Below are positions 16,780-53,167 of a DNA stretch of 64,000 bases, piece after piece; within the stretch, counting starts at the first letter, position 1; each line of letters starts with the position of its first letter. A program made the position numbers and the translations under genes. The stretch is from Symbiodinium natans. Its lineage: Eukaryota; Sar; Dinophyceae; Suessiales; Symbiodiniaceae. The DNA is taken from contig CAJNDS010002113.1 in NCBI GenBank assembly GCA_905221605.1, positions 155,001 through 219,000 on the forward strand. Direction: 5' to 3'. The notes under the pieces are model-generated. The model ran no database searches, was not told where the DNA came from, and saw nothing but the letters and a program-made list of their open reading frames with translations.

Positions 16780-17910
16780 AAAATAGCACAGATGGCATCG
16801 CTGTGCGTCGCACGTGTGTCGTCATGAGCCCCCCAAGAACTCAGGCAAGATGGCCGGGCTGGCATCGCGGGCCGCGCACGCGAACGCTAGGGCGATTTTC
16901 CTGAGCAGTGGCTGGACCATTGGTGCCTGTCAGTTTTGAGGCTCCTTGCGATTGCGCAGATTGCCTCAGATGTTTTGAGACTTCACCTCATGGCCAAAGG
17001 ACGGGCGTCTATGCTAAGGCTGCTAAGGAGTGGTGGCGAAAGCACAGAGGCACAGATGGCATCGCTGTGTGCAGCGTGTGGGCAGTGTCATCCCAAACCC
17101 AAAAACTCAGGCCAGATGGCCGGGCTGGCGTCGCGGGCCGCGCGCGCGAACGCTAGAGCGATTGTCCTAAGCAGTGGCTGGACCATTGGTGCCTGACAGT
17201 TTTGAGGCTCCTTGTGATTGCACAGGTTGCCTCAAATGATTTGAGACTTCACCTCATGGCCAATGGACAGGCGTCTATGCTAAGGCTGCTAAGAAGTGGT
17301 GGCAAAAACACACAGGCACACATGGCATCGCTGTGTGCAGTGCGGTAAGTGTCATCCTAAACCCCCTGAGAGCTCAGGCCAGCTGGCCGGGCTGGCGTCG
17401 CGGGCCGCGCGCGGGAACGCTAGGGTGATTTTCCCAAGCAGTGGCTGGACCATTGGTGCCTGACAGTTTTGAGGCTCCTTATGATTGCGCAGATTGCCTC
17501 AAATGTTTTGAGACTTCACCTCATGGCCAATGGATGGGCATTTATGCGAAGGCTGCAAGGAGCGGTGGCAAAAACACATAGGCACAGATGGCATCGCTGT
17601 GTGCAGCGCGTGGGCAGTGTCATCCCAAACCCCCCCAAGAGCTCAGGCAAGATGACGATGCTGGCGTCGCGGGCCGCGCACGCGCGCTAGGGCGATTTTC
17701 CTACGCAGTGGCTGGACTGTTGGTGCCTGACAATTTTGAAGCCCCTTGTGATTGCACAGATGTCTCAAAAGCTTTGAGACTACACCTCATGGCCAAGGGA
17801 CAGGCTTTGGGCGATGCTTTCCTGCGCTCCTGCCCGTTGCGCAGATGTCTGAAAAGTTTTGAGACTTTTCCTCACTGCCCATGGGCGTCGCGTGTTCAGC
17901 TGAGATAGGC
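16780..17910. repeat. Tandem array, about 265-bp unit, four copies
   Basis: The word GATGGCATCGCTGTG or a close variant recurs at 16,791, 17,055, 17,321 and 17,587, giving periods of 264-266 bp. Each unit also contains GCTGGCGTCGCGGGCCGCGC and TTTTGAGGCTCCTT. A related array of about 270-bp units lies at 23.06-24.6 kb. Confidence 0.9.
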
Positions 17911-20480: not shown

Positions 20481-21650
20481 GTCGACGAAACGGGCTTGGG
20501 TGCTTTGGGGCTGCGGCGACAGCGCGGATTCAGCCGACGGCGGATGCAGGAGGAGCGGCTGCACTGCTCATGCGCAAGAGCGCAACAAAAGAAGAAAAAA
20601 CAAATCTGCATTTAGTTGGTCAGTTCGTGGGCAACTCCATAGTGAAGAACTCCGCGACGAGGAAGTGAACTGCACCTGGCGAGCGGGGCTGCTAATCCTA
20701 GCATGGTCCTACGGGCTGGGCTGTCGGCGTGTGGCCAGGGAAGGTTTTGCCTGGCAGGAGGCTGGTGAGAGGGCTGAGAGAGCTAAATTCTCTGGAGGAT
20801 GCTGCATCAGCAAACGCAAGGGCAAGTGAAGCGGCTACTTCATGCGCAAATCGGCCACAAAACTTTTGCATATGAGCAAACTGGTCTCAAGCAGGCATGC
20901 GAGGTAGCGTGTGCTCATGGGCAGCGTCATCCTGAAGAGCTCCACGACGAAGTTGTTGGATGTACCTGGCGAGCGGGGCTGCTACTCCTAGTGCTGTCCA
21001 GGAACACACGGGCAGTTGCGCCTTATGGTAGGCAAGCGTGCCTTGAACACCCACAGAGGACATGTGGACGTGTTGGAGGCGTTGCCGGGCTGGGCCAGCT
21101 CCAACTACAATAGGCCCTCCGAACTCGGAGGTGCTTTGTCCCGAAGATCGAGGAGAAGGTGCAGTCTTTGGACTGAGGCATAGGCGTTTGGGCATGAGAG
21201 AAGATGGCTCGGCGTTGGCTGTAGCACCAGCGCGAGTCCGAGACGGAGCGCGAAACTATGGCAGGCGGGGCACGCTAAACGCGGGCGTGAGGCAAGCCCC
21301 AGGGCCGCCGAGGATGTAGCTTTTGGCGAACTACAGCGAGGCAGCCACAATCAGCGCTCTCACGAGGGAAGGCTTGGCCTTTGCGGCGCAGATTGCCTGT
21401 AGGACGGCGGCAGTGCGGAGGCAGTGGAGACTGAGCTGGCTGCCTTCGCTGCGCAAATTGCCAGTACGGTCTATAGGCCATCTGAAGCGATTGTGCTTTT
21501 CCTGAGAAAACGGCTTGGGCCTTGGTGGCGCAGATTGCCTGCGCAAGAGGCGAATGCGCTTCCCCCGAAGATGGTCTTCCGACTCAGGCAGAGGCAGCTG
21601 GGCAGAACTCCAGCGTGAGTCCGAGGCGGACCACCAGTACGCAGGGCATG
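20481..21650. repeat. Diverged repeats of about 300 bp
   Basis: A segment at 20,630-20,710 recurs at about 20,930-21,000, sharing CACCTGGCGAGCGGGGCTGC or a close variant. The remainder has the words GCGCAGATTGCC and CGAGGC repeated. No gene recognised. Confidence 0.6.
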
Positions 21651-21758
21651 TCTAAACGTGGGCACGGGGCGAACCCAATGGCATCTGAGCACACCGCTGT
21701 TGGCAAGCAAATATGTGCCTAGAGCCAGGCACGCAGGCGTAGGCGGCTGGGCAAAAAC

Positions 21759-22790
21759 GTGGGCTTTTGCGGTGAGGCAGAGGCAATAAATAGGCAGCTG
21801 GGAAAAAACTCCAGCGTGAGCCCGAAGCGGACCATCAATCGGGCGGAATCTTTCGATTCAGGCATAGGCGGCTGGGCAAAGCTGCAGCGTAGGTCCGAGG
21901 CGGACGACGAAACTATGACATGCAGGGCATGTCTATACGTGGGCGCATGTCCAGGCGTGGACATAGGATAAGCCCGGCGGCAGGAGCAGTGCGCTTGCGA
22001 GGGGAAGGCAGAATCTTCCGATTCAGGCATAGGCGGCTGGGCAAGTTCCAGCGTGAGTCCGAAGCGGACCACGAGTCTATGACATGCAGGGCATGTCTAG
22101 ACGTGGGCCTGAGAACAGGCCCGGCGAAGGCGAGCAGCGCGCTTGCGAGAAGAAACAGAGACGTGGGCTTTTGCGGTGAGGCAGAGGCAATAAATAGGCA
22201 GCTGGGAAAAAACTCCAGCGTGAGCCCGAAGCGGACCATCAATCGGGCGGAATCTTTCGATTCAGGCATAGGCGGCTGGGCAAAGCTGCAGCGTAGGTCC
22301 GAGGCGGACGACGAAACTATGACATGCAGGGCATGTCTATACGTGGGCGCATGTCCAGGCGTGGACATAGGATAAGCCCGGCGGCAGGAGCAGTGCGCTT
22401 GCGAGGGGAAGGCAGAATCTTCCGATTCAGGCATAGGCGGCTGGGCAAGTTCCAGCGTGAGTCCGAAGCGGACCACGAGTCTATGACACGCAGGGCATGT
22501 CTAGACGTGGGCCTATACGAACAAGCCCGGCAAAAACGAGCAGCGCGCTTGCGAGAAGAAACAGAGGCATGGGCTTTTGCGGCGAGGCATAGGCAATTAA
22601 TAGGCAGCTGGGAAAAAAACTCCAGCGTGAGTCCGAGGCGGACCTTCAATCGGGCGGAATCTTTCGATTCAGGCATAAGCGGCTGGACAAAGCTCCAGCG
22701 TAAGTCCGAGGCGGACCACGAAACTATGACACGCAGGGCATGTCTATATGTGGGCCTGACATAGGCCCTACGAGACAAGCAGCGCGCTTG
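21759..22790. repeat. 404-bp tandem repeat, about 2.5 copies
   Basis: GTGGGCTTTTGCGGTGAGG occurs at 21,759 and 22,163, and a variant occurs at about 22,568, giving a period near 404 bp. The first two copies are almost identical. Each unit has two related halves that share TTCAGGCATAGGCGGCTGG and GACACGCAGGGCATGTCTA or variants. The unit length is not a multiple of three, so the long minus-strand open frames through it change phase from copy to copy and are unlikely to be protein. Confidence 0.9.
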
Positions 22791-23059
22791 CTCCAATGCA
22801 TGCCATTCCCTTGTGGGGGATTCGTTGCAGGAGGGGTCTGGGCATCCCGTTGCTGCCCAGATCGCACGCTGGGCGCTGTGAGTCCCTCCGAGGCAAAGGC
22901 CTAAGTACGTCTGTGCATTTCGTAAGATGTCAGAGTTGGCGTACACAGGCCTCTTCAGGGTCAAGGGACGGGCTTGACCGCATCTCTCGGGGCAACAACG
23001 CATGAGAAGTGGCGGTCAAATGCCTAGGCATGGACGGCGTTGGGCGGGCGCCATCCTAA

Positions 23060-24600
23060 ACCCCTAAGAACTCAGGCGGGGTGGCCGGGCTGGCGTCGCG
23101 AGCTGCGCATGCAGACGCGAGGGCGGTTTTCTTAGGCATTGGCTTTGCCGGAGTCCCAAAAAATTTTGGGATTTTTCTTTGGTCAAGGGGCGGGCTTGAC
23201 CCAAATTCTCAAGACGCAAAAGCATGAGAAGTGGTAGCCAAGTTCATAAGCATACATTGGCATTGTCGCTGCGGCTCATGGGCACGAGCCACCCTAAAAA
23301 AAAATCGGCTGGATGGCCGGGCAAGCGTCGCGAGCTGCGCACGCGGACGTGAGGGCGGTTGTCTAGGCACAGGCTGGACTTCGTGCCTGAAAGTTTTGAA
23401 GTCCTTGTGAATTGCACCGATGCCCCAACGGCTTTGAGGCTTCTCCTCATGTTCAGGGGACGGGCTTCACCGCGTGTCAAGGTGAAAATGCATGAGAAGC
23501 GGTAGCCAAAACCCTAGGCATGGCTGGCATTGTCGCGGGCCGCGTGTGGGAAAGTGTCGTCCTAAACCTCGAAGAACTCAGGCAGGATGGCCAGGCTGGC
23601 GTCGCGAGCTGCGCACGCGGACGCGAGGGCACATTTCCTAGAAATCGGCTGGACTTCGTGCCTGAAAAGTTTTGAAGTCCCTGTGAGTTTGCCCCGATGC
23701 CCGAAGAGCTTTGAGGCTTCTCCTCATGCTCAGGGGGCGGGCTTGACCGAGACTCTCAAGGCGAAAAAGCACGAGAAGTGGTAGCCAATACATAGGCAGA
23801 GACGGCATTGTTGCGGGCAGGCGTGGGCGTGTGCCATCCTAAACCCTCACAAAACTCAGACCGGATGGCCGGGCTGGCTTCGGGGGCGGCGCGCGCGGAC
23901 GTGAGGGCGGTTTGCTTAGACCTTGGCTGGACTTTCGTACCTAAAAGTTTTGAAGTCCTTGTGAGTTGCACCGATGCCCCAAAAGCTTTGAGGCTTCTTC
24001 TCATGGGCAGGGGAAGGGCTTGATCGAGACTCTGAGGCGAAAAAGCATGAGAAGTGGTAGCCAATACATAGGCCGAGATGGCATTGGTGCGGGCAGGCGT
24101 GGGAGCGTGCCATCCTAAACCCTCAAAAACTCAGGCTAGATGGCCGGGCTGGCTTCAGGAGCGGCGCGCGCGGACGTGAGGGCGGTTTGCTTAGGCTTGG
24201 CTGGACTTTCATGCCTGAAAGTTTTGAAGTCCTTGAAAGTTGCACCGATGCCCCAAAGGCTTTGAGGCATCTCTGCGTGTTCAGCGGACTGGCTTCACCG
24301 CGTGTCAAGGTGAAAATGCATGAGAAGCGGCAGCCAAAAACCTAGGCCTGGATGGCATTGTCACGGGCAGCATGTGGGAGTGTGCCATCCTAAACCCTTA
24401 ACTCAGGCAGGATGGCCAGGATCGCGTCGGGAGCTGCGCACGCGGACGTGAGGGCAAATTTCCTAGAATGTGGCTGGACTTCGTGCCTGAAAGTTTTCAA
24501 GTCCTTGTGAAACGCACCGAGGCCCGAAAAGCTTTGAGGCTTCTCCTCATGGTCAAGGGACGGGCTGGCCTTGTGGCAGCGTATTCCTCAGGGCAGTGTT
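23060..24600. repeat. Tandem array, about 270-bp unit, six copies
   Basis: GATGGCCGGGCTGGC or a variant recurs at about 23,080, 23,310, 23,588, 23,864, 24,138 and 24,410. It shares unit organisation and words with the 16.8-17.9 kb array, including GGCGTCGCG followed by GCGCACGCGGACG and then AAAGTTTTGAAGTCC. The two arrays are diverged members of one satellite family. Confidence 0.85.
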
Positions 24601-35959: not shown

Positions 35960-37198
35960 CCAGACCCAAACTGGCTAACCCCCAACTTCAGCCCAAAATT
36001 CACTTCAGCCTGGACGATTTGGAGCACGTGGACCCCAGCCCAATGGAGGCCTCTTGGATGTTTCAGAGGTTCCGCGGGATGTTCCGCCGGATGTTCCGGG
36101 GCTGTTTCCATGTGTTCACGTGTTGGGCGGTCTGAAGCTCTGTTGCGGTATTGGCGGGGTGCACAAGGTGCAATGTTTAATGCCTTGAGCCTTGAGAATG
36201 AGGTTTGTGATATGATCTGTTTGTCCGGTGTGCTTGGGTGTGTGGGGTGCAGGCTGGCAAGACGGCTGCAGGTTTGTAATTATTTCATGGTTAGACCCAA
36301 GCCCGGCTCACCGTCAGGCACCGCGGTGTTTTTGGTTGTCCAAATGGCAGTACACAGCAGCCACTTATTCTTGTAGGATGTGTTTCGCCTTTCTACCAGG
36401 TGAGCTTCGACATTCAAGGTGACGTGAGGGCCTCAATTGTCTTGTTAATCTAGTTCTCACACAATTTCCCTAGATTGGCGGCGATATGCGGACATATGGT
36501 TCAGTTGAGCGTAAGCTTTGCGCCTTTGTGCTAACCATGGAGGCACAGTGTTGCACACGTCGTGATCTTGAATCGGTTTAGAGGCTTTGTTGAGAGTGTG
36601 CCTCTGAGGTGTACTCGATGAGGTGTCCCAATATGGAGCTAACCCCACAGAGCGCTGTCTCCCCAGCTTTGCCCACATTTGAATCTGCAGTACTGTGTCC
36701 GTCTGCTGCCGTGTTCATGGATATTCTGTAGGTCATGAAGAAATGGGAGGACTTAGGCAACGCGCTCAGCACTTTTCTTTTGGCATCAGTGGTGACGATG
36801 TGCCTGCAAAATCAAGCCTCACCGCTCTCTAACCTACTGCTAGTTCAGCAAGGCAATGCTGAGAACGCTTGGAGGTTATTCAGGAATCTCAAAAGCGACT
36901 GCGCCAAGGCGTGCCATACGCATCGCGCATCCGCTTCTTGGCTCCTTCCGAGCATGGTTACAGGACGCTTGCCATGGTCAAGGTCAAGAGCGGCAGAGTT
37001 GAGAGGCTGTTACAGGCTTGGGTTGTCCTGGCCAAGCATGAACACCAAAGACCAGTTTCTACTTGCGCAATGAGGCCCTAAGGCTTTTAAGGCCCTAAGG
37101 CCCTAAACGTGAAACCCCCAGTGAGGACCCTGAATGCAAGGGCGGATGCCCTGCCCGTCGTGCCTGTGGTGGTCAAGCTGGGGCCCGAGCACTTTTAG
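35960..37198 (+). CDS. Possible multi-exon gene, unrecognised (three to four exons)
   Basis: Exon-like blocks on the plus strand. 35,960-36,108 encodes KLANPQLQPKIHFSLDDLEH and MEASWMFQRFRGMFRRMFRG, ending before a GT. 36,377-36,399 is a 23-nt block between TTGTAG and GTGAGC. About 36,864-37,073 encodes LEVIQESQKRLRQGVPYASR and GYRTLAMVKVKSGRVERLLQ, ending before a GC donor. About 37,110-37,198 encodes ADALPVVPVVVKLGPEHF followed by TAG. Residue composition and flanking splice-like dinucleotides support real exons. Whether they form one gene, and what it does, is not known; joining phases were only partly checked. Confidence 0.3.
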
Positions 37199-37946
37199 TA
37201 CTTTTCCTCGAGGTTTTCGGGTCGTTTGTGTTTCGGGTTTGGGATTCGTAGGGTGCTCAGGGCTTTTGGGCGCCGAGGCTGCCGAGCCACGTTCAGGGAT
37301 GCTACTTAATGAGATTCCCATGTCTCGCTGCCCCAACGAACCGACAGTTTGTGGTTTAGCCACATCAGCTGCCTCAATGCTTCATAGCCAATTCCACACT
37401 CTCACATGACCCGTTGAAGCAACGGTGCAAGCAAGGCTTAAAGATGTCGAGATCGTTGCTGCAAGCTCGCTCCCACCCGACGCTATCGCAGTTTCCTTTG
37501 CGGTTTCACAGCATCAATCTCCGTTGTGTGCTCAACATCAAGCGCTCCAAGATACTGTTTGAGAAACCAAAACCACGAAGGCCTTGCAGCGTGTTCTTGC
37601 TTTCTTGTGAGCCGCAAACGGTTCAAATTTGGGCAACACGCGAAACATGTCTTACCAGGAAACTTCGGTACACATCCTTCAACTTTCAATCATGAACGGA
37701 GATTCCCTTTAACGCGCTACAGACCCTCCCTAAAACGGGGGCCACCCCTGGAGCTTCGAGCTTCTCACTTTGGGCTAGGTTTGGTCCCCTTCTTGCTCCC
37801 AAAGGCCCCTTTAGAGGATCATCTCTGGACCCTTGCAAGAAGCAAAAATTTGCGGCCAAAAGCGGTGGAACCCCGGTGACGTCGATCCTTTGCTGCAGGC
37901 TCGAGGGGCCTGGAAGCGTCCTCACGGCCCTGGCAGTCGCGCTGAA

Positions 37947-38034
37947 ACGTCGAGGCTCCGCTGCGGGCCGTGGCACCGGCAGCTCACCAGCACTACGACC
38001 CATTCCACAGCCGCCAGAGAGCCATTTTTGAGCA
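37947..38034 (+). CDS. Single exon-like segment, unrecognised
   Basis: Frame with APLRAVAPAAHQHYDPFHSR then QRAIFEQ, followed by GTTGTC (a possible GT donor) and telomere-like intron-type sequence. It may belong to the preceding or following exons. No family recognised. Confidence 0.3.
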
Positions 38035-38699
38035 GGTTGTCGGGTTGTGGGTTTTTGGTGTTTAGGGCTTAGGTTTTGGGTTGGGGGTGCACCGCGCAAT
38101 GAGAGGCTGGAAAGTGATGGGTCTTGCGGCGAGTGCACGAGCGTCGTCATGAGACATCGGAGTTACAAGAAGATTCCCCCATCCCGAGAATGCTTAAACT
38201 TTGTCTTTCCGTCCGGCACAACGTCTCTCCTGGCCTGTGTGACTCCCTGCTACGTAGATCCCCTAATGTTTCACCCATGAGCTGTGTCGTGCAGAGAGAG
38301 ACCTTGAAACTAAGCCACATGGGGGCTGATCGGTGAATCTTGGGGTTTCCAAAATTTCGGGTCCCTTCCACTGTCCTTTGGGCAGGCTTTCGAGGGCAGT
38401 AAGGTTTAGCCCCCTAAAGGCGGCTTAAGGTGCAATTCTGTGGTTCCCAGGCCAGAAGAGCCCTGCAAATCCTAGCAGGGTCCACATTAACAAAATCAGG
38501 CGCTTTCTCTGGTGTTCAGCGCGGGTGAGTGCTCTGAACCTCGACAAAATCAGCCCCTATCTCTACGCCTTAAGTAAACCTAAAAAGGCCTAAAGGCCCT
38601 TCACCCGAAAGCCGTCAAGCCCTAGAAGCCTAGAAGCCCCAAAGCCCTGAAGCCCTTAAACTTTGAAGACGCCTTGAATGCCCTAAACCCTAAAGCCCC

Positions 38700-39410
38700 G
38701 CTGCAGCCCTCGTGTTGTTGAAGTGAAGGCCGCGGAGCACAAAGCGGGCCTGCCCTCCACGGCGCTGCCCAAAACGCCACAAAGCCGGCGCCGACGACCA
38801 AGAAGGCCGACAGGGGTTTAGGGTTTGGGGGTTTGGGGTTTAGGGGTTTAGGGTTTAGGTGTTCAGGTGGTTAGAGTTGAGAGGCTTAGGGCCTCGGGGT
38901 CTTCGGGCCTTTGAGAATGCAGGGCACCCATGTTCGAACCTTCCGATGGATGGGGCTCGATTTTCGCAGGAGGGCCTGTAAGTAACCCTAAACCTTAAAC
39001 CCTAAACCCCTAAACCCCCAAAACCCTAAACCCTAAACCCTAACCCTAAACCCTAAACCCTAAACCCTAAACCCTAAACCCTAAACCCTAAACCCTAAAC
39101 CCTAAACCCTAAACCCTACACCCTAAACCCTCCACCCTCAACCCTAAACCCTAAACCCTAAACCCTAAACCCTAAACCCTAAACCCTAAACCCTAAACCC
39201 TAAACCCTAAACCCTAAACCCTAAACCCTAAACCCTAAACCCTAAACCCTAAACCCTAAACCCTAAACCCTAAACCCTAACCCTAAACCCTAAACCCTAA
39301 ACCCTAAACCGTAAACTTCAAAACCCAAAAGCTCTTGGCAGAGGTAGGGCTCGGCCCAGTGCAGCGTTCCGTCTTCCGGCAGTACCAGGCCATGAAGCCG
39401 ACTATGGATG
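38700..39410 (+). other. Scattered exon-like segments around a telomere-like array
   Basis: 39,332-39,388 (possibly to 39,409) encodes LLAEVGLGPVQRSVFRQYQ and is bounded by AAAAG and a GC donor. Less certain pieces lie at 38,708-38,810 and 38,915-38,975. They resemble the micro-exons of the ataxin-2-like gene in size and flanks, but no protein family was recognised. Confidence 0.3.
38984..39318. repeat. Long telomere-like array (CCCTAAA)
   Basis: About 330 bp of CCCTAAA with few variants, the longest such array of pure type in the window. Non-telomeric sequence flanks both sides. Confidence 0.97.
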
Positions 39411-39470
39411 GTAGTCCGCCTAGTAGAATCCCTTTTAAGGACAGTTAGTCTAAGCGGAAACATCCCAACA

Positions 39471-39668
39471 TACATCTATATATGTATATAGATATATAGA
39501 AATATAGAAATATAGATATATAGATATATAGATATATAGATATATAGATATATAGATATATAGATATATATAGATATATAGATATATAGATATATAGATA
39601 TATAGATATATAGATGTATAGATATATGTATATATATATATATAGATATATAGATATATGTATAGAGT
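39471..39668. repeat. ATATAG microsatellite
   Basis: (ATATAG)n with AT and GT interruptions, about 200 bp. Confidence 0.95.
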
Positions 39669-39920
39669 ATATTTTTTTTGGGGGGGGGTGACCACGCCTT
39701 TCGTTAGATGAGATGGGGATAGGAAAGAAGGGTTTCGGGTTCAGAAGTTTAGGGTTTAGAGTTTAGGGTCTAGGGTTTAGGGGCAGTTTTTCCTGAATCA
39801 TGAATCACGCTGTGCTGCTGCGTGTGTTGGGTGCTCCTTTGCTCGACTTGGGGTTGAGAAGAGCTTTCGAACCCTTGCCTGGCCCCGCGCTTCTGTGATG
39901 CTGTCTAAAGCAGCGGAGGT

Positions 39921-40090
39921 CTACTTGGAGGTTCATGGGTATCCTGTATACAGTATGCACTTTGAATGGTGTCGGTGCTGACGGCCGCTACCAAGCTTGC
40001 GCATTGAAAAACGACGAAAGAGTAACCATGGTTATCACCTTGTTAAGGGTACTTATCACCCCACTTTTATGTACGCATGAACCTGCAAAT
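39921..40090. mobile_element. MITE-like element, family A (copy 2)
   Basis: Left end CTACTTGGAGGTTCATGGGTA is almost identical to the copy at 60,294. The right end (GTACGCATGAACCTGCAAAT) is its diverged inverted repeat. Internal words GGTTATCACC and GGGTACTTATCACC match the family. It is longer than the other copies because of internal extra sequence. Confidence 0.6.
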
Positions 40091-40600
40091 ACCAGTTTCT
40101 ACCGTTCTGCAATACAAAGCTTGTCTACATCGGAAAGGGTCAGACAGTCGAAGCATATCGGAAGGTGGGAGTGTGTGCATGGGTGCGTGCATGCTTGGGA
40201 TTCGGCCTTCAGCGCTTTGAGGGTTTTCTTTACTTGCAACGTGTACGTGAAGAGGGTGGAGCTGCAAGAGGTCGGGCGCCATTGTCGCCACTAAATCCAA
40301 CACCGCAGCCCTTCAAGTTTGCACAGCACCTCGATTCTCGATGTCACTTTTTCCTGAGTGCAGGCCGACATGCACCGGAAGATTGCAGAGGCTGAGGCCT
40401 CTTGCTCAGCATCCGCGAGTGCAGAATCCCGTGTTTGTGGGGCTTCGTCGGGATGTGCCATGCTTTCGCTACATGCGTCACGGGTGCAAAGGAGCTTCAG
40501 CTCGTCACATGTCTGAACTCGCAACATGCTTGGCTGATAGATTGAAGCCGATTGAAGCCGTTGGTTCAAACTTGTTTCCTTGTTTGTTTGCCAGATCTTG

Positions 40601-41334
40601 ATGCTGCGGTTCGCAGCATTGGTTGTTTGGTTGCGCTGTGGCCTGAGCTGGTCAGAGCGCGGCGTGCAGACGGTGCTTCAGGAGATCCATGCGCACAACG
40701 CTTTGAAGCAGAATGAGACCCGCACCAGCCGCTTGGCTGCATCCTTTGTCTCTGTTGCTCTTTGCCTTAAAGCCCAGGCATAAACCAGGGTCACAAGGGG
40801 TCGCAGTTCTTGGAGCTTGACATGCCAGGAACCTGTGAGAGCGAGACTTTGCCACAACAGATCCCAGCTCTGAACTATGGTGCCAAGCCGACAAAGGCGC
40901 TATCCACCGCATGCTGGCAGAAGTGTGCGGCGGAAGAGATCGCGGGAAAGAACCTCCATGAATCGGCTGTGAGGGCAATTGCAGGTTTTGCCCAGGACGA
41001 TGGAATCGTGAAAGCCGTGATCTACGGTACCTTGTATGCCACTGGTGCACTGCCCAATTGGGACGTACATGATATTTGCTCGAGCACGTTCGACCTCATC
41101 CAAATGAAGTGTCCGAGAGGTTTCTTTAAGAGCGCCTGTGTGGCGGAGTTTAATGGTGACTACTTCACAAAGAGCAACCCGAAATGTTTGCGTGCATATG
41201 ATGCCCTCGGCCAGAACAACGGGGAGTATCGATGTGCCTTTGCGGCTTGGTGGGACTCCTGCTGCAGTACCAGAGATCACCAGCACGATGATGAATGCGC
41301 ACAGTGCGGCCAGGACCAGTATTTTTGCTCCTGA
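40601..41334 (+). CDS. Probable secreted cysteine-rich protein, unknown family
   Basis: The ATG at 40,601 follows a pyrimidine-rich tract ending TTTGCCAG, six bases upstream, a good candidate acceptor for spliced-leader trans-splicing. The first residues (MLRFAALVVWLRCGLSW) resemble a signal peptide. A phase-0 splice from about 40,690 (GC donor) to 40,788 (CAG) joins LQEIH to a 181-codon second exon (40,789-41,331, TGA at 41,332). A shorter intron with a donor nearer 40,748 is also possible; the choice affects about 20 residues. The mature part has about 13 cysteines (CWQKC, MKCPRGFFKSAC, SCC, ECAQC, YFC), suggesting disulphide bonding outside the cytosol. No family was recognised and no function is assigned. 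Predicted length is about 210 residues. Confidence 0.5.
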
Positions 41335-41880
41335 GACCGGTAGAGAGGCCTCCGTTCCACCGAAGGCCTCTTGCTCCTCGCGCGGTGCCCGGGTGACATG
41401 TGATGCTTGCAGCCTTTCCCTGGACTTTCGGTGCCGTCAGGCACCCAAGTCCTGGTACTGCAGGCGGAGGATTACCCAGTTCGGCACCTCGCAACCCCAG
41501 CAACCCTGCGCTGCCCAGCGCAGCTTTTCAAGGACAAACTTCATCTTGGCCGTGAGCTGCACGGACTCAAGCAGCTGCCCTGCAAAAAGGGCGCGAGCGT
41601 CGGTGCAAGTGGCCAAGAGGGCCCCCTTGAGCGGATGCCTCAGCGCCTCGCCCCCGCTGTACCCAGGAAGGCTATGTGGCAATGGAAGATCAGCAGAGGC
41701 GCAACCACGAGGACCCGTGCCGATTGTTCAGGGGGGTCAGCCCGAAAGCTTGGTCTTGCTTTGCGAGAAACCCTAGAGGAGCCTCGTAACCTGCCCGGGC
41801 TCGCCATATGAAGTGCACCGCGCTTGCGACGCCAAACCCTACTCGGCCCTACCCTGAACCCTATACCCTAAACCCTAAAC
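41335..41880. other. Stretch after the cysteine-rich gene, unclear
   Basis: GC-moderate sequence with open frames on both strands. The minus frame 41,682-41,437 and the plus frames at 41,138-41,811 overlap and cannot both be real. No domain recognised. Confidence 0.3.
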
Positions 41881-41896
41881 CCCTTGCCGGCCTCAG

Positions 41897-42157
41897 GAAT
41901 TCCTCCGCGCGGCTGAGGCAGAGCGCAAGGAGGAGGCTGCGAGGTCCCCCGAGGGCTTTGGGGCTTCAAGGCTTCAGGTTGTCAGGGGACCCTAAGGGCT
42001 TTCCCCCGGTATAGAAGGAATACCTTTCAGGAGAGAATCCCTGACAATCACCTCGACCTGACAAGGGGACCCCAAGTTCGAATGCCACGTGCAACCTCGT
42101 GTGGAGGTGGGCCCAGGAGGAGGCCGAGTGGGCGAGCCGCCGCCGGGCACAGCGGAA
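41897..42157 (+). CDS. Two micro-exons encoding a charged helix, unrecognised
   Basis: Exon 41,897-41,943 (after CTCAG, before GT) encodes EFLRAAEAERKEEAA plus two bases. Exon 42,107-42,157 (after GGAG, before GTAGG) supplies the third base and continues WAQEEAEWASRRRAQR. The join keeps frame and gives one Glu/Arg/Ala-rich helix, which supports the splice. It may be the upstream part of the ataxin-2-like gene, or a separate gene. The connecting exon, perhaps near 43,530-43,600, could not be phased. Confidence 0.4.
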
Positions 42158-42209
42158 GTAGGAGAAAATGTGCGAGGAGCTTGTGTAATTTTCCCTTGAA
42201 ATCTAATCC

Positions 42210-43520
42210 CTAGGGTTTAGGGTTTAGGGTTTGGGGTTTAGGGCTTACAGTTTTGGGAACTCTCGATCCTCAAAGCCTAAGCCCTTGTAGGACGCTTAGA
42301 TATGTGGTCCGCGCCCTGAATTGTTGGGGTTCTGTTGCCTAATCTTGACAAGCTGCTTGTGGTGCTTGCACAAGCCATGTCGTGATGGGCGAGGTGCTTT
42401 TGGTTGCACTCTCCAGCTTACTCTACAGCCTTACACCCTTAAACCCCAACAATTTTGAGTGGTGCATCGTCTCGGATGCTTTGCCACCACCCTGCTCGAA
42501 AGAAAGGAGAGAGGACCTCCCAAACCGAGAAAGCCCTAAGAAAAGCCTGCGTTGCAGCTTATCCGGCTTAGCTTGGGTACAGGTCTCGGGGCTTGTGGTA
42601 CAAGGTTTCAAGGATTTGGTGAAACCTTCGAACCTTCTGACCGCCGATTTTCAACCAGAAAGCCCGGGAACGATTCCTGCACGACCGTGGCTGTGGCTGC
42701 AGCTCATAGGGGTGGCCAAACCACTGTGGCTGCGCCCCTCCTTCTTTTCCATTCGCTCGGCGCTTGGTTTTTTGGGGTTCCGCAAGACCTCCAAGAACGC
42801 CAACCCCGCAATGCAAGACCTTCAAGGATGCCAACCCCGCAATTAAACCCCATAAGCCTCGATTTCCTCAGTGATGCAAACCCTGCTCCCTTCAACCGGA
42901 GCACGACCCTTCTCGCTGATCGAGTGCCAGCAAACACCGCAGATGGGGCGCAAACATCCCAAACCTTCAGCTTGTTGAATGACACAACCGCTCGTTTACG
43001 ATCCCTGAGAGCCGTACGTACGTGAACCAGTGCAGCCTAAGGCACACCCTAAAGCCTGAAGTCTCGCAAATGTTTTAAAGAGGTTGACGCCCATCCACTC
43101 GCCCTTCGTGGTCGCGGAGTGGTGCTTGTGGGCGGCTGAGGCCGAAAATAATAGCAATAAATTCTTAGTATGATCATTCTGATTTTAAGTTCGATTCATA
43201 TTTTTGTTTCTCTCTCTAGGAGTCAAGTGTCTATTTTTTGCTATGTTGTGAATAGTAACTCATCATCATTATTACAATGATAACAATAAGAATAATAGTA
43301 ACAAGAACTAGCAATGTTTAGGTTTATTTGCAGTAGTTTGCGAGCCATACGCATGACAAGCATCGAATTAGTGCGACGTCGGAGGGCTGGCTGCCTCTAC
43401 GTGGCCCAAGAACCGTTTTAAGCCCCAGAAGCCCCGAGAGGCCCCGAAGGCCCCTGAGCCCGTGGCCTGATAGGGTTTCGGGGTTTAGGGTTTAGGGGTT
43501 TAGGGGTTTAGGGTTTAGGA
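42210..43520. other. Intron-like or intergenic DNA
   Basis: Contains short telomere-like patches (42,210-42,246; 43,474-43,520) and an AT-rich segment at 43,150-43,330. A few weak exon-like frames, such as 43,092-43,146, are not convincing. Confidence 0.4.
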
Positions 43521-43771
43521 AAGCTTGTGCCAGGAGCCCTGCAATGGCGGGAATGAACAGGACGACCAGGCCTCCAAGAAGCCGCTGCCTTAAAGCCCTC
43601 GGTTCACGAGCTTCCCTGAGAGTTCTATACATGACTACACTTGCTGCTGCTGCTGCTGTTGTTGTTATGAACTTTGATCGTGAGGTTCAACCCTCATCCC
43701 TCCCTGAAGCCTCATCCCTCCCTGAAGCCCTACTCCCTGAGCTCCCGCCACCCTTTCCGCGAGTGCCCCAG

Positions 43772-46225
43772 GCGAAGCACGATCAGTTGGTGGTCGGCCG
43801 GATGGGCCCGACATCAACAAAGACCGCCTGGTGCGCCAGGGACTGCCTTGGACCCTTACCCCTGAACTCTAAACCCCCAAAACCCCCAAACCCCCAAATA
43901 CCAAAACCTGGAAAATCCGAAGCCCTACGCCCCTAAACCCCCGGACTTCCACTCCCCTAGAGCCCTAGACAATCCTCCGCGGCTTCGCGCACAGACCTTC
44001 TGCCTCGCGAGCCTCATCGGACACAAGGTGACCGCGTCGTTGAGAAACAACGCCCGTGGCCCGGACGGGAGGGCTTCATTCAACAGCCCTTAAACTCTGG
44101 TCCCTGAACCCTAAACCCTAAACCCGAAACCCTAAACCCTAAATCCCATAAAAAAAGACCTTCACGAAAATTCAGAGAACCTCAAAGAGGCCCTTGGCAA
44201 AAGGGGCTGAGCGTTCCAACAGTTAGGCCCGTGAAGTGTTCTGGAGGTCGGTGAGGGACGTAATGGGGGTCCCCCCATAATAAGGGACCCCTGGCTTGCA
44301 CTTGCTTGTATCTCGAAGGGGCCATCAACGCCCAGTCTTGGAATTTCCAGAGATGTTGCAATAAGAGCCCCGAAGCCCTTCACCTTCAACCCTGAACCCA
44401 ACCCTAAACCCGAAACCCTAAACCTTGAACCCTAAACCCCTGAGACCGACCCCCTTGTCTCGGAGCCCCTGGCCGCTTCTCAGGTCATGTACGAGGGCAC
44501 CTTCCATAGGCCGGGTTGTGTGAGGGGCTCTGGTGTCCGAAGGTTAAAGGGTCAGGGTCTAGGGCTGCTTTCAAGGGTTTAGGAGGGTTCGGCTCATGGT
44601 TTTGAGGGTTGAAGGTGGTTTTACATCCCACAGCCCCGCATGCATCCGCAAGCCAAAGCTCAATCTCCAAGGGCACCCGCCTTTCAGGGTTTAGGCGCCG
44701 AAAACCCTCCATCGCTTGCGCCCGCAGCTGTGCCCTGGACAGCGACTATTCCATCACGCTGAAGACGGCCAGAAGGCCGGGTGCTGGAACGCAGGTCTGA
44801 AGATGTCGGCTTCGGATTTAGGGAATTTAGGCTTAGCCCTGAGCCCCAAACTCGGCAGTTCCCGTATGTGCGGTGCACTGACAGTTCTCTCCGCCAGGGC
44901 CCCATAAACCCACACTGCCCAAGTCAAATTTGTAGGGAGCCTCGGTTCACAGAGTTTCAGAGTTTCAGGAACCAGCCGCACGCCAGGCTTCCGTCCGAGA
45001 GCAACAACAAGAGCGGGGAGGTCGCGGCCGGCTCAGCGGGGTGTTTTCGGGGGGTTTTGTCAGAGGCCCAGGCTTCATTGCTGCCCATTTCGGGTTTAGG
45101 GTTTGGGGTTTGGGGTTTAGGGTTTCGGGTTTAGGGTTTAGGGTTCAGGGACTCTGGGACTCTGGGACTCTGGGGCCCTAAGAATCCCAAGAAGAGGGTT
45201 CAGGAGTCGGAGTGAGGGTTTCAGAACCCCAGGCCTTGTCCTGAGGATCGGAACCTACGCAACGCGGGCCCAACTGAACTTTGAGCCCCCCCAACATTGT
45301 GAGACTTCTGCATTGGTTTCTCTATGTGTGGCATCTAGCTGTGCGTTGATATGTGCTTGTTGGTTTCATTGTATATGGTACATGCATACTCGTTGGTTGG
45401 AGGTTGGGATCTGTCACATATCGGGTTTGGCGAAACAGGGTTCCCCGGCCTCCAGAAGCCCTTGGGACGTGTCTTGAAATTTGATGCGGCCTGAGATCGA
45501 CATGCTGGTCATCTCCGGGAAGGACTTCCTGCAGGCCTATTCGCGGGAACATTCGTTTTGGGGTTCAGGGGGTTTGGGACGCAGCCTCACTCAGCACGAA
45601 GCACTGGGAACCTACCAAGAACCTTAAAGCCTGAGCCAAAATTCTGAACCCTTAAAATCCCGCAGACGGCGGTCTTTGCTTTGCACACAGCTCAAAACCC
45701 CTCCCTACCCACCAAACCCACTTACCTACCTACATACCTACTTACCCGGACTCTGTGATGTGGGCCTGTCTCTTCGCGTTTCTTCATACAGAAACCCCAA
45801 GCCCCGAAAACCTAAACCTCGAACGGGCTGTAGTTGGGGATGCTGTGAACAAACAGTGCAGGTTTCGGCCGTGAACGTGCCGCCGCCGTCCCGAGAAGGG
45901 GAAGGCTCCATTTTTGGGTTCAGCTTGTTTGTCTATATATTTTTGCTTAGGTCTTTTCGTCTTTGTTTGCTTTGAGATTCGAATTTGTTGTTTGTGCTAG
46001 ATGTTCTTCGGGGCGTTTCGGGCGTAGTTTTGAAAGTGCATTTTAGCTAATTGTTGTTTTCGTGTGCTAGCTGTTTTTGGGCTTAGTTTCGTTGCGCGCT
46101 GCGGGCTTGTTCGAGTTTGGGGTGTTGGGGGGTTGTCGACTCAACACTGTTTGTTCGTTGCCATCTCCCCTCGTCCAGGCCGCAAGGCCTTCGCGATCGA
46201 CTCTGAGATCAGCGGGAGCCAGGGG
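43772..46225 (+). CDS. Ataxin-2/PBP1-like gene, 5' part (Lsm domain and start of LsmAD)
   Basis: Seven micro-exons read in order. 43,772-43,839 (GPDINKDRLVRQ); 43,995-44,051 (TFCLASLIGHKVTASLRNN); 44,484-44,509 (VMYEGTFH); 44,728-44,775 (CALDSDYSITLKTAR); 44,987-45,020 (LPSESNNKSGE); 45,862-45,904 (VSAVNVPPPSREGE); 46,179-46,225 (RKAFAIDSEISGSQG). From the second exon on, every junction keeps phase. Donors are GC at 44,052, 44,510, 44,776 and 45,905, and GT at 45,021 and 46,226. The DRLV...LIGHKV...YEGTFH...ITLKTAR order is the ataxin-2 type Lsm (SM-ATX) domain. AFAIDSEISG matches the FxTDxEISG opening of LsmAD. Ataxin-2/PBP1 proteins bind RNA and poly(A)-binding protein and act in mRNA stability, translation and stress granules. 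The N-terminus and start codon were not found. Introns hold telomere-like repeats. The gene resumes at 53,196, after a 7-kb intron that contains another gene. Confidence 0.75.
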
Positions 46226-46767: not shown

Positions 46768-49700
46768 ATGGCGGCGGGAGCGTCGCGGTTCCGACGTGCG
46801 AAGGGTGCTGTGGCATCTGGCCCGGCGCCAGCGCCCAAGCCACTGCAGCCGGATGCTGGATGGGAGCTCATCTTTGGAGAGGACGTGGCTTTGGAGTGGA
46901 ATGTGAGGTCTGGTAGTTGTGATTTAGATTTTTCCTGAGTTGGCTGTATGCGTGTAGTTAGGTGGATATGTGGCACCTGCATACCTAAGGTGGAGAACCC
47001 CGAAGTTCTGGAGCAGCACAAGTTTGGACTGCAGATGGCACTCTTGGGCCAGGGAACGCCTGAGGGATTCGTGGACCACGAGTTTCCGGCACAGGCCCGA
47101 AGCATCGATGGCTTGCAGGGCCCCCCTGTGCGCCGCGGACAGGAGACGCTCATGGAGCTCTTGAAGACCGTCGACCACGAGGAGGATGAGGAGGAAGAGG
47201 AGGTGCCCGACGCACCACGCTGCCCCTGCGGCCGTCGCGCTCGCCAGGGGAGGGTCCAGCTGCCTGGCATGGTGGCCCGGCGGCCCTACTTCCGCTGCGC
47301 TGCACGCGCCTGCCGCTTCTTCAGCTTCGGAGAGCTCCCCACCACACCGGAGGCGCAGGCCCTCTCCTGGGTACGGCTGCGCACCGTTGCGCCGGACAGC
47401 ACAAGCAGCACCAACAGCGCATGGCTTGCACAGCACCTGGTCGTGGTGGGCCGGGATGGCTTTCGGCCCGAGGATGCTCGCCTTGGGCCGGGGTGCGAGT
47501 CGTTGGGAGATGCTCTGTTCGTCGATGCGCTCGCGATCCTCTCAGAGCGACCCAGCGCTTTGCAGAAGCTCCTGCCCAACGTGGCCACCACCACAGTCAC
47601 CACAGCCGGTTGCCACGAGATCCGGCTTTGCACAGAGGGCATCTGGCGATCAATCTTGCTGGACGAGCGCTTGCCCATGGCATCCAGTGGTCCGAAGCTC
47701 GAAAAGAACTTCCACGAGCTCCTGGCCTTCGGGCGCTGTGCAGGCAACCAACTCTGGATTCCGCTTCTCGAGAAGGCCTATGCCAAGGCGTACGGGGCCT
47801 ATCAGTTTGCTTTTCCTGGCACAGCCTTGTCCGTCTTCCTGGAAGATCTTACCGGCAGCATCGTCGAGCAGGTGCATCTTGGGAAGCCTCGGAACAGCGT
47901 CGGTGAGCTCTTGGATCCGAAGGAGCTCTGGGCGTATTTGCTCGGCCACCAGCGGGACGGCACTTTGCTTTGCTGTGTCTCCCAGCTTCTGCAGACCTCA
48001 GCTTCCTCGGCCTTTGCAGTGCTCGACATGTCCGAGGGCCCAAACGGCTCGCCGGGTCGGATCCGCCTGCGCAACCCGCGTGTCACAGGCTCCAGTGCCA
48101 CGGCTGCGTACGAGCGGATTCTGTCGATGCTCCGAGGTTCGCCGGCAGAGGCCTCGACTTATGCAGATGGCTCTTTCTGGGTGCAATTCATGGACTTCCT
48201 CTCAGTGTTCTCCCAGGTCTGCATGTGCCACGCTGCCTCTACCGGCGGTGCATTGCTGCACACGCGGACCTTCGAGGGCGAGTTCACGCCCGAGCGGGGC
48301 ACCGGAATCCGTGGCTGTTGTCTCCGCCTGTCTGCGTATGCTGGCGCTGAGCCCTGCGAGGTGTGGCTCTCACTCCTGCAGCCCATCCCAAAAGGGGCCC
48401 GGCTCCTTCAGCCTTCCATGGGCCAGGTGCTGAACGACCTGTCGCTGGTGGTGCTCGATTCTTCGAGCGGCGAGGCGCCGAAACTACTGAAACATACTGC
48501 CCTCAGCCTCCTGAGCCCTACTAGCCCTGCAATCCAAAGCCATCCAGCCATCCAAAGCCACCCCCCATATTTTATAAAGCCTCAGTCGAACTATGATGGG
48601 GTTTTCTCAACATCGAATCTTATGAGGTCTTATCTACCTCCTGCACTGCTAGACTTCTTCTGAAACCCAGAGGTGGCCGTGGCGGCCCTCTTCGGAGCAC
48701 GGCCGGTTGGCAGCTGCCGCGTAGCCCTAGCTCCGAACAAGGCCTGCGGCCCCGGGGCCAGCATGTGGAGTCTACCCGCGCGCCCCAAGCCCTCCCAAAG
48801 AACCCTAAACCCCAAACCCAAACACCAGCAAACCCTCAATCCGAGATGAACCCAAAATCCTACACCCTTAGGCTGGAAGCTGGCTGGTCTTGCCTTTCAG
48901 TCGCCGCGCTTGGCCGGGTCCCGTGCAGCTGGGCCTCAAGCTTGACCAGGGTCCGCCCTAAACCCCGCAAGACCCTGGGCCTTCGCAGCTCCCTGAACAC
49001 CCGCAAGCACACTTGACAAACCCTAAACCCAGCCCTAAACCCTAAACCTAAACCCTAAACCCTTCCTAAACCCAGCCCTAAGCCCTAAACCCTTAAAGCT
49101 TCAGAGGCGGCTCAGAGTCCACTGTTCGCAGCCGGTGGAGGTGCAGCGCCTGGCTTCGGAGCCTGGCGAGAGGCGTGGGAGGTTCAAAGCTCTCGGCTGG
49201 GGTTTAACAGGCTTTCTGCCCAACCCCGCCCAAGGCCCCTTGAGCCATATTGGGGCATGGAGGTATTGGGGCATGGAGGCAGCATCACGAGCAGCAGCTC
49301 GGAAGGCCTTGGAGGCAGCATCACGAGCATCAGCTGTGAAGGGCTTGAGCCGTATTGGGGCATGGGGGCAGCATCAGGAGCATCAGCTTGAGCCTTATCG
49401 GGGCATGGAGGCAGCATCACGAGCATCAGCTGGGAAGGCCTTGAGACGTATTGGGGCATGGAGGCAGCATCACGAGCATCAGCACGTGCATCAGCCGGGA
49501 AGGTTTTGAGACGTATTGGGGCCTGGAGGCAGCATCACGAGCATCAGCTGGGAAGGCCTTGAGACGTATTGGGGCATGGAGGCAGCATCACGCGCATCAG
49601 CTGGGAAGGCCTTGAGCCGTATTGGGGCATGGAGGGCAGCATCACGAGCATCAGCTGGGAAGGCCTTGAGATGTATTGGGGAATGGAGGCAGCAGCACGC

Positions 49701-52481
49701 GCATCAGCTTGAGCCGTATCGGTGCATGGAGGCAGCATCACGAGCATCAGCTGGGAAGCACGGAGGCAGCATCACGAGCATCAGCTGGGAAGGCCTTGAA
49801 CCATATTGGGGCATGGAGGCAGCATCACGAGCATCAGCTGGAGAGGCCTTGAGACCTATTGGGGGCATGGAGGCAGCATCGCGAGCATCAGCTGGGAAGG
49901 CCTTGAGCCGTATGGGGGCATGGAGGCAGCATCACGAGCATCAGCTGGGAAGGCCTTGAGCCGTATTGGGGCATGGAGGCAGCATCACGCGCATCAGCTG
50001 GGAAGGCTTTGAGATGTATTGGGGGGCAGCATCACGAGCATCAGCTGGGAAGCACGGAGTCAGCATCACGAGCATCAGCTGGGAAGGCCTTGAGACGTAT
50101 TGGGGCATGGAGCAGCATCACGCGCATCAGCTGGGAGGCCTTGGGGCATGGAGGCAGCATCACGAGCATCAGCTGGGAAGGCCTTGAGACGTATTGGGGC
50201 ATGGAGGCAGCATCACGAGCATCAGCTGGGAAGGCCTTGAACCATATTGGGGCATGGAGGCAGCATCACGAGCATCAGCTGGGAAGGCCTTGAGACCTAT
50301 TGGGGCATGGAGGCAGCATCACGAGCATCAGCTGGGAGGCCTTGAGACGGGCATGGAGGCAGCATCACGAGCATCAGCTGGGAAGGCCTTGAGCCGTATT
50401 GGGGCATGGAGGCAGCATCACGAGCATCAGCTGGAAAGGCCTTGAGACGTATTGGGGCATGGAGGCAGCATCACGCGCATCAGCTGGGAAGGCCTTGGGG
50501 CATGGAGGCAGCATCACGAGCATCAGCTGGGAAGGCCTTGAGACGTATTGGGGCATGGAGGCAGCATCACGAGCATCAGCTGGGAAGGCCTTGAACCGTA
50601 TTGGGGCATGGAGGCAGCATCACGAGCATCAGCTGGGAAGGCCTTGAGACCTATTGGGGCATGGAGGCAGCATCGCGAGCATCAGCTGGGAAGGCCTTGA
50701 GCCGTATTGGGGCATGGAGGCAGCATCACGAGCATCAGCTGGGAAGGCCTTGAGCCGTATTGGGGCATGGAGGCAGCATCACGAGCGTCAGCTGGGAAGG
50801 CCTTCAGAGTGTGACCTATAGTTCAGTTGGCTCAAAACATTCTGTGTAGGTCGCCCAAGTCAGAGGTTTGTATCAGCCCGAAACCATACCACCCCGAAAC
50901 CCAACTCCAGACCCGAAACCCTAAAGCAGGGCACCTTGGGAGCCGCTCTTTTGCCTGGTGGCTGCGGCAGCTCGCGGCGCGGCCCCTGGCTTGCGCGGTG
51001 TGGGTTCCCGGAGACCGGTCCATGTTCGGACGGCAGCAGGTCCCCTTGTTTTGGAGGGGTGGGGGTTTGGCGCGGGGGGGTTTTTTTTTGAGTTTCGGAT
51101 TTGTATGGATTAAGACTGTGTTCCCGGAGAAGGAAGGGAGGTCCAAGGCAGCATGCGGAAGTCCAAGCCAGGCGGGGAGACTTCGCTGACGGTGGAGCTG
51201 TTGGAGCTGCGGGCAGAGGGTGCAGTGTTGCTGCTGCTGGACAACACCTTTGCCAAAGCGGCCCTGCTCTTCGAAGCGACAGTTGAAGGCAACCATGTGG
51301 TCACACAGACCTCCCGGGGATCGCAGCTGGGAGATTGGTGTGAGGAGAGGAACGAGGATAGCTTCAAAGTTGGAGCTCGGACACAGTGGCGGCGCTACAA
51401 GGTCGAAGACGTCATTCCTCCGGCCTCACGGCAGATGGTCTCAATGCACTTTGCGGTCGGCACCGATTGGGATGTCGAGGTGCTGACTGTGAAGGCCTCC
51501 GTTGTCCCAGTCGCCATGGCCGGAGCCCGTCCCAGGAACCACCCGTTCGCCCCCTACGCCATTCGCGGCAACACGCTGCTGGCTCCGAACCTCGACGTGC
51601 TCGCGGCGGATGGTGCATCGGCCGAAGGCCTCTTGGAACGCCAGGAAGATGCGGAGCTGCAGCTCGCCTTGCAGCTGTCCCTGCAGGATGTTGCCAAGCC
51701 GTTGGAGCCGCGCCAGCGCTGGGGCCGCCGCAACAAGGCCGAGGCCAACGGCGCTGAAAACAAAGCGTGCTCCATCTGCTGCGAGCCCCTCCGAGCGCCT
51801 GGAGATCTGCCAGCACAATCAGCACAACATTTAAAATGTTGTGCCCAGGTCTGTTGGAGCTGCGCCTCTCGCTGGGCCATGGAGCAGGAGGCACAGGGGC
51901 TCGCTGCCGCAGAGATGCGCTGCCCACAGTGCTCGGCTGTGCTCGAGGATGCGGTTCTGCGGCAGCTGCTAGGCACGGACGCTCTTCACAGAGCCCAGGA
52001 GCGCACGAGGCGCCGTGGAGAGGTGGGGCCTAGCGACCTGTCCAGCGCCACACTGGTGCGTTTGGGCCTAAAACGGTGCCCTGGCTGTGGAGAAGGCCTG
52101 CAGAAGGAGTCAGAGACGTGCCACAAGATGATCTGCCGCACCTGCCGCGCCCGCTTCTGCTTCCGGTGCCTTACGCGACTGGAGCCTTTGCCGCAGCTGG
52201 GGCTACACGATTGTGTAGAATGATCAAGCTTTGGGGGGTTTACGAAGTTTACGAATTTAGGGGACCCCGAATATGGAGCCCCAAACAGTAGGATTCCCTT
52301 TTTAATAAGCACCCCAATAAGTCCCCCTCATTTCGGAAACCCCCATAGGATCAAAATACTACCGACTTATAGAGAATTCTTGGAGACTCGGGCAGTCGAG
52401 GAGTACTTCAACTGCGGTTGCACAGGTGCGGAGCACCGCTTTGTTGACCCGATGGATGGACGGACACTTATGCATCAGTAG
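46768..52481 (+). CDS. GRF-calpain-like pseudoprotease with UIM and RING/RBR modules
   Basis: Model: exon 1 46,768-46,902; GT-AG intron of 87 bp; exon 2 46,990-48,474; intron of 2.7 kb, probably GC-AG; exon 3 from about 51,141 to 52,214; GT-AG intron of 171 bp; exon 4 52,386-52,478; TAG at 52,479. All joins keep phase; about 929 residues. A Glu-rich run is followed by a GRF-type zinc finger, about 123-158 (CPCG...YFRC-x4-CRFF). The calpain protease core, about 185-470, shows GCHEIRLCTEGIW, NQLWIPLLEKAYAKAYGAY, FLEDLTG and DGSFWVQFMDFL. The nucleophile motif reads ESLGDALFVDAL, so catalytic Cys is Ala220. The GHAYSV-type motif reads SSAFAV, so His is Ser385. Asn407 (RLRNP) remains. A domain-III-like region spans the exon 2/3 join. 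A ubiquitin-interacting motif (EDAELQLALQLSLQD, about 709-723), a RING (C750-C804) and a RING2/Rcat-like module (C853; CPGC, then TCHKMIC-x2-C-x4-C-x2-C) follow. Cys867 aligns with the RBR catalytic Cys. No IBR is visible between the RINGs. Expected role: non-proteolytic, ubiquitin-linked; inferred only. Confidence 0.75.
48475..51140 (+). other. Large intron 2 of the nested gene (candidate)
   Basis: Begins GCGCCG after ...SSSGE and ends GGGAG before GTCCAAGGCAGC. Other acceptors of the same phase exist at 51,161 and 51,167. The plus frame of exon 2 continues for 63 codons into the intron, up to TGA at 48,661, but with low-complexity content. Inside are telomere-like patches at 48,800-48,830 and 49,017-49,100, and the 53-bp minisatellite. 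Confidence 0.55.
49240..50805. repeat. 53-bp minisatellite, roughly 28-30 copies
   Basis: The unit contains GGCATGGAGGCAGCATCACG, AGCATCAGCTGGGAAGGCC and TTGAGACGTATTGG. The full length is 53 bp and many units are shortened or interrupted. Because 53 is not a multiple of three, all three frames are read in rotation, giving the alternating peptides GGSITSISWEGLE, EAASRASAGKAL and AWRQHHEHQLG. It is best placed in an intron and not read as protein. Confidence 0.95.

Positions 52482-52590: not shown

Positions 52591-53167
<577 letters not shown>

Follow-up and report, generated by a model that had tools for sequence, protein, structure and literature searches.

A dinoflagellate calpain with a lost catalytic triad is fused to UIM, RING and Rcat-like modules

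A fused calpain gene in Symbiodinium natans

We analyzed a window of 64,000 nucleotides from the dinoflagellate Symbiodinium natans (assembly GCA_905221605.1, contig CAJNDS010002113.1, here C1801, positions 155001-219000); the genome searched alongside it comprises 759,417,921 bases. A gene on the forward strand of this window encodes a GRF zinc finger, a calpain core lacking two of its three catalytic residues, the calpain beta-sandwich, an uncharacterized domain, a putative ubiquitin-interacting motif (UIM), a RING and an Rcat-like module. Loss of the triad and fusion of these parts in one polypeptide are both strongly supported.

Mapping proteins of relatives (P0001 onward) onto the window revealed at least eight exons, where a first-pass annotation made from the sequence had proposed four (Table 1). 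Joined, the eight exons give 992 residues in a stop-free reading frame. The earlier model lacked exons 3, 4, 5 and 6, and 46884 is a more likely end for its exon 1. Exon 8 is the source of the final Rcat Cys and His residues. Residue numbers accordingly change from A220/S385/N407/C867 to A214/S379/N401/C946. Splice sites, some with GC or GA donors, as occur in dinoflagellates, were set by homology to relatives' proteins, and the true exon 3/exon 4 junction could lie a few codons away. Over exon 2, P0001-P0013 are 47-80% identical to the window protein. Intron 5 holds a tandem array that is open in several frames, yet has no counterpart in the relative P0022.

Table 1. Exons, domains and catalytic positions of the gene, in window coordinates
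Feature	Position	Strand	Residues and remarks
Exon 1	46768..46884	+	aa 1-39; GED|VEN junction as in P0001/P0005; GT donor
Exon 2	46990..48474	+	aa 40-534; GRF finger, calpain core, initial part of calpain beta-sandwich; Peptidase_C2 E 3.9e-29
GRF zinc finger	47212..47328	+	aa 114-152; ligands C117, C119, C142, C147
Pseudo-calpain core	47431..48186	+	aa 187-438
Ala214	47512..47514	+	catalytic Cys position, by alignment
Ser379	48007..48009	+	catalytic His position, by alignment
Asn401	48073..48075	+	third triad residue, retained; followed by Pro-Arg, not Pro-Trp
Exon 3	48673..48729	+	aa 535-553; 85% identity to end of P0001
Exon 4	48872..48922	+	aa 554-570; tblastn with P0029/P0013; boundaries uncertain by a few codons
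Exon 5	49105..49172	+	aa 571-592; tblastn with P0022
Tandem array	49263..50808		~53-bp units, within intron 5
Exon 6	50930..51039	+	aa 593-629; tblastn with P0022
Exon 7	51172..52181	+	aa 630-966; remainder of uncharacterized domain, UIM, RING, bulk of Rcat
UIM	51642..51689	+	Pfam UIM E 0.0022, 18.1 bits (below cut-off of 21)
RING	51768..51932	+	aa 829-883; eight Cys
Rcat, first part	52077..52181	+	candidate catalytic Cys946, codon 52119-52121
Exon 8	52401..52481	+	aa 967-992 and stop; Rcat end YFNC-x-C...H; 88% identity to P0022; aligns with CUL9 YYNC

The calpain core has lost its catalytic triad

The frame at 46939-48663 matches Peptidase_C2 in Pfam above the curated cut-off (E 3.9e-29) and solved calpain structures with a best E of 3.7e-15, indicating by fold and sequence similarity a calpain fold of CysPc and beta-sandwich. 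The calpain domain of the first-pass annotation was thus recovered by profile search, and alignment bore out its reading of the active site: Ala stands for the catalytic Cys and Ser for the catalytic His, while the third triad residue, Asn, is kept.

We then counted these positions in 26 family rows, consisting of the window protein, P0001-P0013 and P0034-P0045. Rows are sequences rather than species, so that Polarella, represented by P0013 and P0037, is counted repeatedly, as is the shared type of P0006, P0010 and P0034. We omitted the window's own entry P0021, P0016 because of its frame errors, the RNF14-like outgroup P0033, the outgroups P0014 and P0015, and the other calpains P0017-P0020 and P0046-P0048. 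At the nucleophile position, 19 of 26 rows have A, V, I or T, six have a gap and one lacks the region; Cys was found in 0/19. The His position is occupied by S, T, N or P in all 26 rows and by His in none. The triad Asn is retained in 25/26, the Trp after Asn-Pro is replaced by Arg in 26/26, and the oxyanion Gln survives in only 1/25. Relative to P0014 and P0015, 17 aligned rows share an insertion of three to four residues right before the nucleophile position. The protein therefore lacks the combination of Cys-His-Asn triad and oxyanion Gln that marks an active C2 peptidase. The loss is common to the family, which nevertheless retains the zinc ligands of both GRF and RING, indicating that the window gene is not simply a decaying copy.

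GRF finger, UIM and RING-Rcat module

Among the family rows, the GRF ligands C117 and C119 are retained in 23/23 each and C142 and C147 in 25/25 each. The window copy scores 14.9 bits, below the Pfam cut-off of 25.9, but a family profile matched the NEIL3 GRF structure at E 2e-6, which strengthens the earlier assignment. A UIM motif was also matched in the window copy, at a score below the Pfam cut-off. It was detected at E<=1 in 12 of 33 scanned members, many of which are fragments without the UIM region. The uncharacterized domain (aa 576-775) is confidently modeled in P0034; its profile found no match in PDB (best E 0.7), and hhalign detected no relation to the calpain sandwich.

The frame at 51114-52223 matches IBR in Pfam (E 1.9e-6; 28.3 bits, above the cut-off of 24.3) and the HHARI RING2 domain (E 5e-4). 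All eight RING Cys are present in 23/23 rows, although the window copy reaches 17.2 bits against a zf-RING_2 cut-off of 27.3. In the model of P0034, the RING fold matches the RBR ligases ARIH2, HOIP and parkin over ranges that we take to be RING1; together with the eight Cys, this points to an RBR RING1. For Rcat, the family profile matched HHARI RING2 (E 1.3e-5) and CUL9 (E 1.7e-4). Cys946 is invariant in 22/22 rows. It falls in the most conserved stretch, where it lines up with the catalytic Cys of HHARI and CUL9, which argues on sequence grounds for an Rcat with a catalytic Cys. Non-Cys entries at the Rcat ends are accounted for by odd or short C-termini of P0036 and P0043.

The RING and Rcat-like motif noted earlier thus stand, but the name RBR fits only in part. 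Canonical RBR ligases are RING1-BRcat-Rcat enzymes, whereas no BRcat/IBR was found between RING and Rcat here: the window linker has 48 residues and 0 Cys, and in 21 of the 22 other RING rows (P0043 left out) it has 42-67 residues and 0-2 Cys. Separately, a RING-IBR-Rcat frame at 1210-2379 of locus L044 (C585) appears by eye to carry two ~70-residue repeats between IBR and Rcat.

Relatives carry the parts in one polypeptide

A full-length search yielded 20 proteins, 12 of which (P0034-P0045; 814-1116 residues) were new family members. Named close relatives belong to Symbiodinium, Effrenium, Durusdinium, Polarella and Prorocentrum, a spread that is a lower bound, as searches scored the 8000 candidates richest in shared words. 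By reading and alignment, P0034, P0035 (Effrenium voratum), P0037 (Polarella glacialis) and P0039-P0042 extend from the GRF finger through the Rcat end. P0038 begins inside the GRF and P0045 inside the calpain, and both reach the Rcat end. P0036 (Durusdinium trenchii) reaches Rcat with an odd end. The RING is the last part of P0043 (Prorocentrum cordatum), and P0044 breaks off ahead of the UIM.

P0038, P0041, P0042 and P0045 bear TRINITY transcript names, and P0034, P0039 and P0040 are probably transcripts too, from contigs of 3169-3247 bases that barely exceed their own frames. Rather than lying on separate transcripts, the calpain and RING/Rcat parts are therefore joined in relatives, by TRINITY-named transcripts and annotated proteins alike. 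For five pairs of separate calpain and RING proteins (P0002/P0024, P0004/P0027, P0007/P0025, P0009/P0023 and P0012/P0031), linkage on the same contig is deduced from equally long contigs.

An intact paralogue in the same genome

Calpain loci are plentiful in the genome (at least 39 exon matches), and a single other place, on contig C1877, also matches the GRF region at E<=0.001. Pieces of this paralogue have Cys, His and Asn in place, together with a GRF finger, sandwich, uncharacterized domain and UIM. A tblastn search with the exon-7 protein found no RING-Rcat near it (C1877:56000-95999) and, genome-wide, only the gene itself at E<=0.001, although a diverged copy could escape either search.

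In a midpoint-rooted tree of 26 core sequences, 16 family rows form a 100/100 group with a stem of 1.08. This group is nested in a larger one, supported at 100/99, that also contains the C1877 paralogue and the GRF-calpains P0014 and P0015. The paralogue itself groups with Prorocentrum P0014 (97/95). P0014 has Cys, His and Asn, with a gene model that lacks part of the GRF; P0015, from a chytrid, has Cys and His in a gene model without the Asn stretch. With a GRF N-terminal of CysPc and this shared ancestry, the window protein belongs to the GRF-calpain clade.

Because Prorocentrum has both the intact P0014 and the dead P0043, the duplication probably predates the split of its lineage from that of the window. 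Between these lineages, core identity is 84% for the intact copies and 48% for the dead ones, compared with 61% versus 52% in the sandwich and 37% versus 33% in the uncharacterized domain. The dead core thus seems to have been freed from catalytic constraint. Within the family, the dead core is still better conserved than the RING (0.51 versus 0.40; 28 pairs). A GRF-calpain would thus have been duplicated, one copy retaining the triad and the other losing it and coming to bear the ligase module.

Other features of the window

Upstream of the calpain gene lies a small-exon gene (43765-46222, + strand) with an Ataxin-2 SM domain, recognized through SM-ATX in P0005 and P0016, and an apparent LsmAD start; LsmAD matched 1 of 33 members. 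SM-ATX was rejected as part of the calpain gene because eight long Met-starting relatives (P0035, P0037, P0039-P0044) begin shortly before the exon 1-2 homology. No SM-ATX match was found in P0037, P0039 and P0041, scanned singly; P0035, P0040 and P0042-P0044 were judged by eye. P0016 also maps to 36004-43116 (+ strand) in many short exons, indicating another upstream gene.

Ten other long frames of the window gave no Pfam match at E 0.01. A GC-rich region at 16831-24566 contains three long-unit tandem arrays (266, 404 and 274 bp), and the sole frame tested there (22320-23015, minus strand) had no Pfam match. Telomere-like 7-bp repeats (AAACCCT/AACCCTC) are dispersed within the contig, for example at 52602-53099 and 38984-39316.

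Discussion

We think it fairly probable that this protein is a conserved dinoflagellate ubiquitin ligase in which the dead calpain core holds targets and Cys946 transfers ubiquitin. The RING1-like domain would bind E2~ubiquitin, and ubiquitin would pass to Rcat Cys946 and from there to a target gripped by the dead core and sandwich domains. The UIM may retain ubiquitylated targets or chains, and the GRF finger, a domain "proposed in nucleic acid binding" (Table 1 of PMC3563603), may set the protein on nucleic acid. The architecture suggests that the old protease part now holds targets instead of cutting them. Of the first-pass proposal of a binding platform in a ubiquitin ligase, our results strongly support the fusion and the loss of the triad; the platform role and a ubiquitin-carrying Cys946 are what we infer.

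Several observations weigh against the ligase interpretation. BRcat is absent, unlike in canonical RBR ligases. The structure model is of P0034, 54% identical to the window protein, and in it the Rcat (pLDDT ~37-56), the GRF and the UIM helix (751-763) have low confidence, so that these three rest on sequence. VIA-align re-ranks Foldseek's own list, and classical RINGs may match equally well. The UIM of P0042 is degenerate. As a separate matter, the story of simple triad loss is complicated by a Cys one position on in P0038, P0039, P0040, P0042 and P0044, and by a His two places past the old one in nine rows (P0013, P0037-P0040, P0042-P0045). For the ligase reading, the absence of a linchpin proves little, since FANCL also lacks one (PMC5095918).

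Rather unlikely, in our judgment, is a RING-type ligase or zinc scaffold, in which the RING itself would cooperate with the E2 and the Rcat-like module would have a purely structural role, forming no ubiquitin thioester. The missing BRcat would fit, as would the classical-RING-like C-x2-C end of the RING and the Ile/Val and Trp (23/23 rows each) at positions that we take to be E2 contacts. However, the linchpin position is non-basic in 22 of 23 rows, and the invariance and alignment of Cys946 speak for a catalytic role.

A pairing of marker and cutter is a speculative prospect to which we give little weight: the dead copy, as a minimal RING1-Rcat enzyme without BRcat, would tag targets with ubiquitin, and the living paralogue, with which it shares GRF, sandwich domains and UIM, would read the mark and cut the same targets. 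We are still more doubtful that the protein has no ligase activity and serves to read ubiquitin or as an adaptor on nucleic acid, its zinc domains merely binding partners. The presence of UIM and GRF, and of a UIM in the intact paralogue where no RING was found, would suit such a protein, but RING and Rcat ligands and Cys946 are conserved across the family rows.

It is very improbable that the displaced Cys and His substitute for the old residues as a cryptic protease in early-branching members. The five proteins with the displaced Cys have both in the alignment used; in P0039-P0044, however, a one-residue gap makes placement ambiguous, and counted from upstream the Cys of P0039, P0040, P0042 and P0044 takes the old nucleophile place. 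Because P0041 has the same gap and keeps Trp at the disputed position, that Cys is probably not the old nucleophile. Moreover, neither residue occurs in the window or Symbiodiniaceae-type rows, the oxyanion Gln is replaced in 24/25 rows and the Trp by Arg throughout. That the gene is a pseudogene in decay, or that prediction has fused two genes, as some public models (P0001, P0005, P0016) absorb the SM-ATX gene, is scarcely credible given the stop-free exons and TRINITY-named P0041 and P0042 spanning GRF to Rcat and P0038 and P0045 spanning calpain to Rcat.

With the RBR ligases ARIH1/HHARI, ARIH2, CUL9, RNF14, HOIP and parkin, the ligase module shares the RING1-like fold, the Rcat signature and the invariant Cys; it differs in the absence of BRcat/IBR and in the shorter Rcat end, YFNC-x-C...H. 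P0001 and P0036 are labeled Calpain-15 (SOL) by their sources, and Calpain-15 likewise joins zinc finger(s) to a calpain core. Its definition, however, includes N-terminal RanBP2-type fingers, where the window protein has a GRF finger, and an SOH domain. No RanBP2-type finger was found by Pfam in window frames, nor among the 25 of 31 families listed for relatives; the architecture zf RANBP x 3 ~ pC2 is on record (PMC4631099).

A GRF-calpain alone and a dead triad alone are each already known. Zf_GRF-CysPc calpains occur in SAR, Hacrobia and Plantae (Zhao et al. 2012, PMC3563603), and UBA4-zf-GRF-pC2 in Ostreococcus and Micromonas (PMC4631099). As in the window family, with which chytrid P0015 and the C1877 paralogue cluster, the GRF finger precedes the core, and some have a ubiquitin-binding domain; the window family has lost the triad and added a RING-Rcat module, which excerpts of both papers do not describe. 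Non-peptidase calpains, such as calpamodulin (calpain-6) and trypanosomatid calpains (PMC4631099, PMC7912814), also keep the fold without catalytic residues and are thought to bind or scaffold, but no ubiquitin-ligase module is described for them in excerpts of these sources. In PMC4631099, 29 of 267 C2 homologues are non-peptidase, Symbiodinium minutum has 44 C2 homologues, and a single Schistosoma calpain-7 carries a UCH domain. Together with repeats known from deubiquitinating proteins, named in a trypanosomatid figure legend (PMC7912814), this domain is the nearest link to ubiquitin. In the literature searched, chiefly non-subscription and covered by title, abstract start and passages, neither a calpain-UIM-RING-Rcat (RING/IBR) fusion nor a RING1-Rcat pair without BRcat was found.

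Control of dinoflagellate gene expression is said to be mostly post-transcriptional (PMC12787238). The family provides a concrete, testable candidate ubiquitin enzyme in these organisms. Should its RING1-Rcat pair prove functional in the absence of BRcat, the need for BRcat in RBR catalysis could be put to the test. Here a protease has seemingly been recruited into a ubiquitin ligase, and the genome still encodes an intact protease paralogue against which it can be compared.
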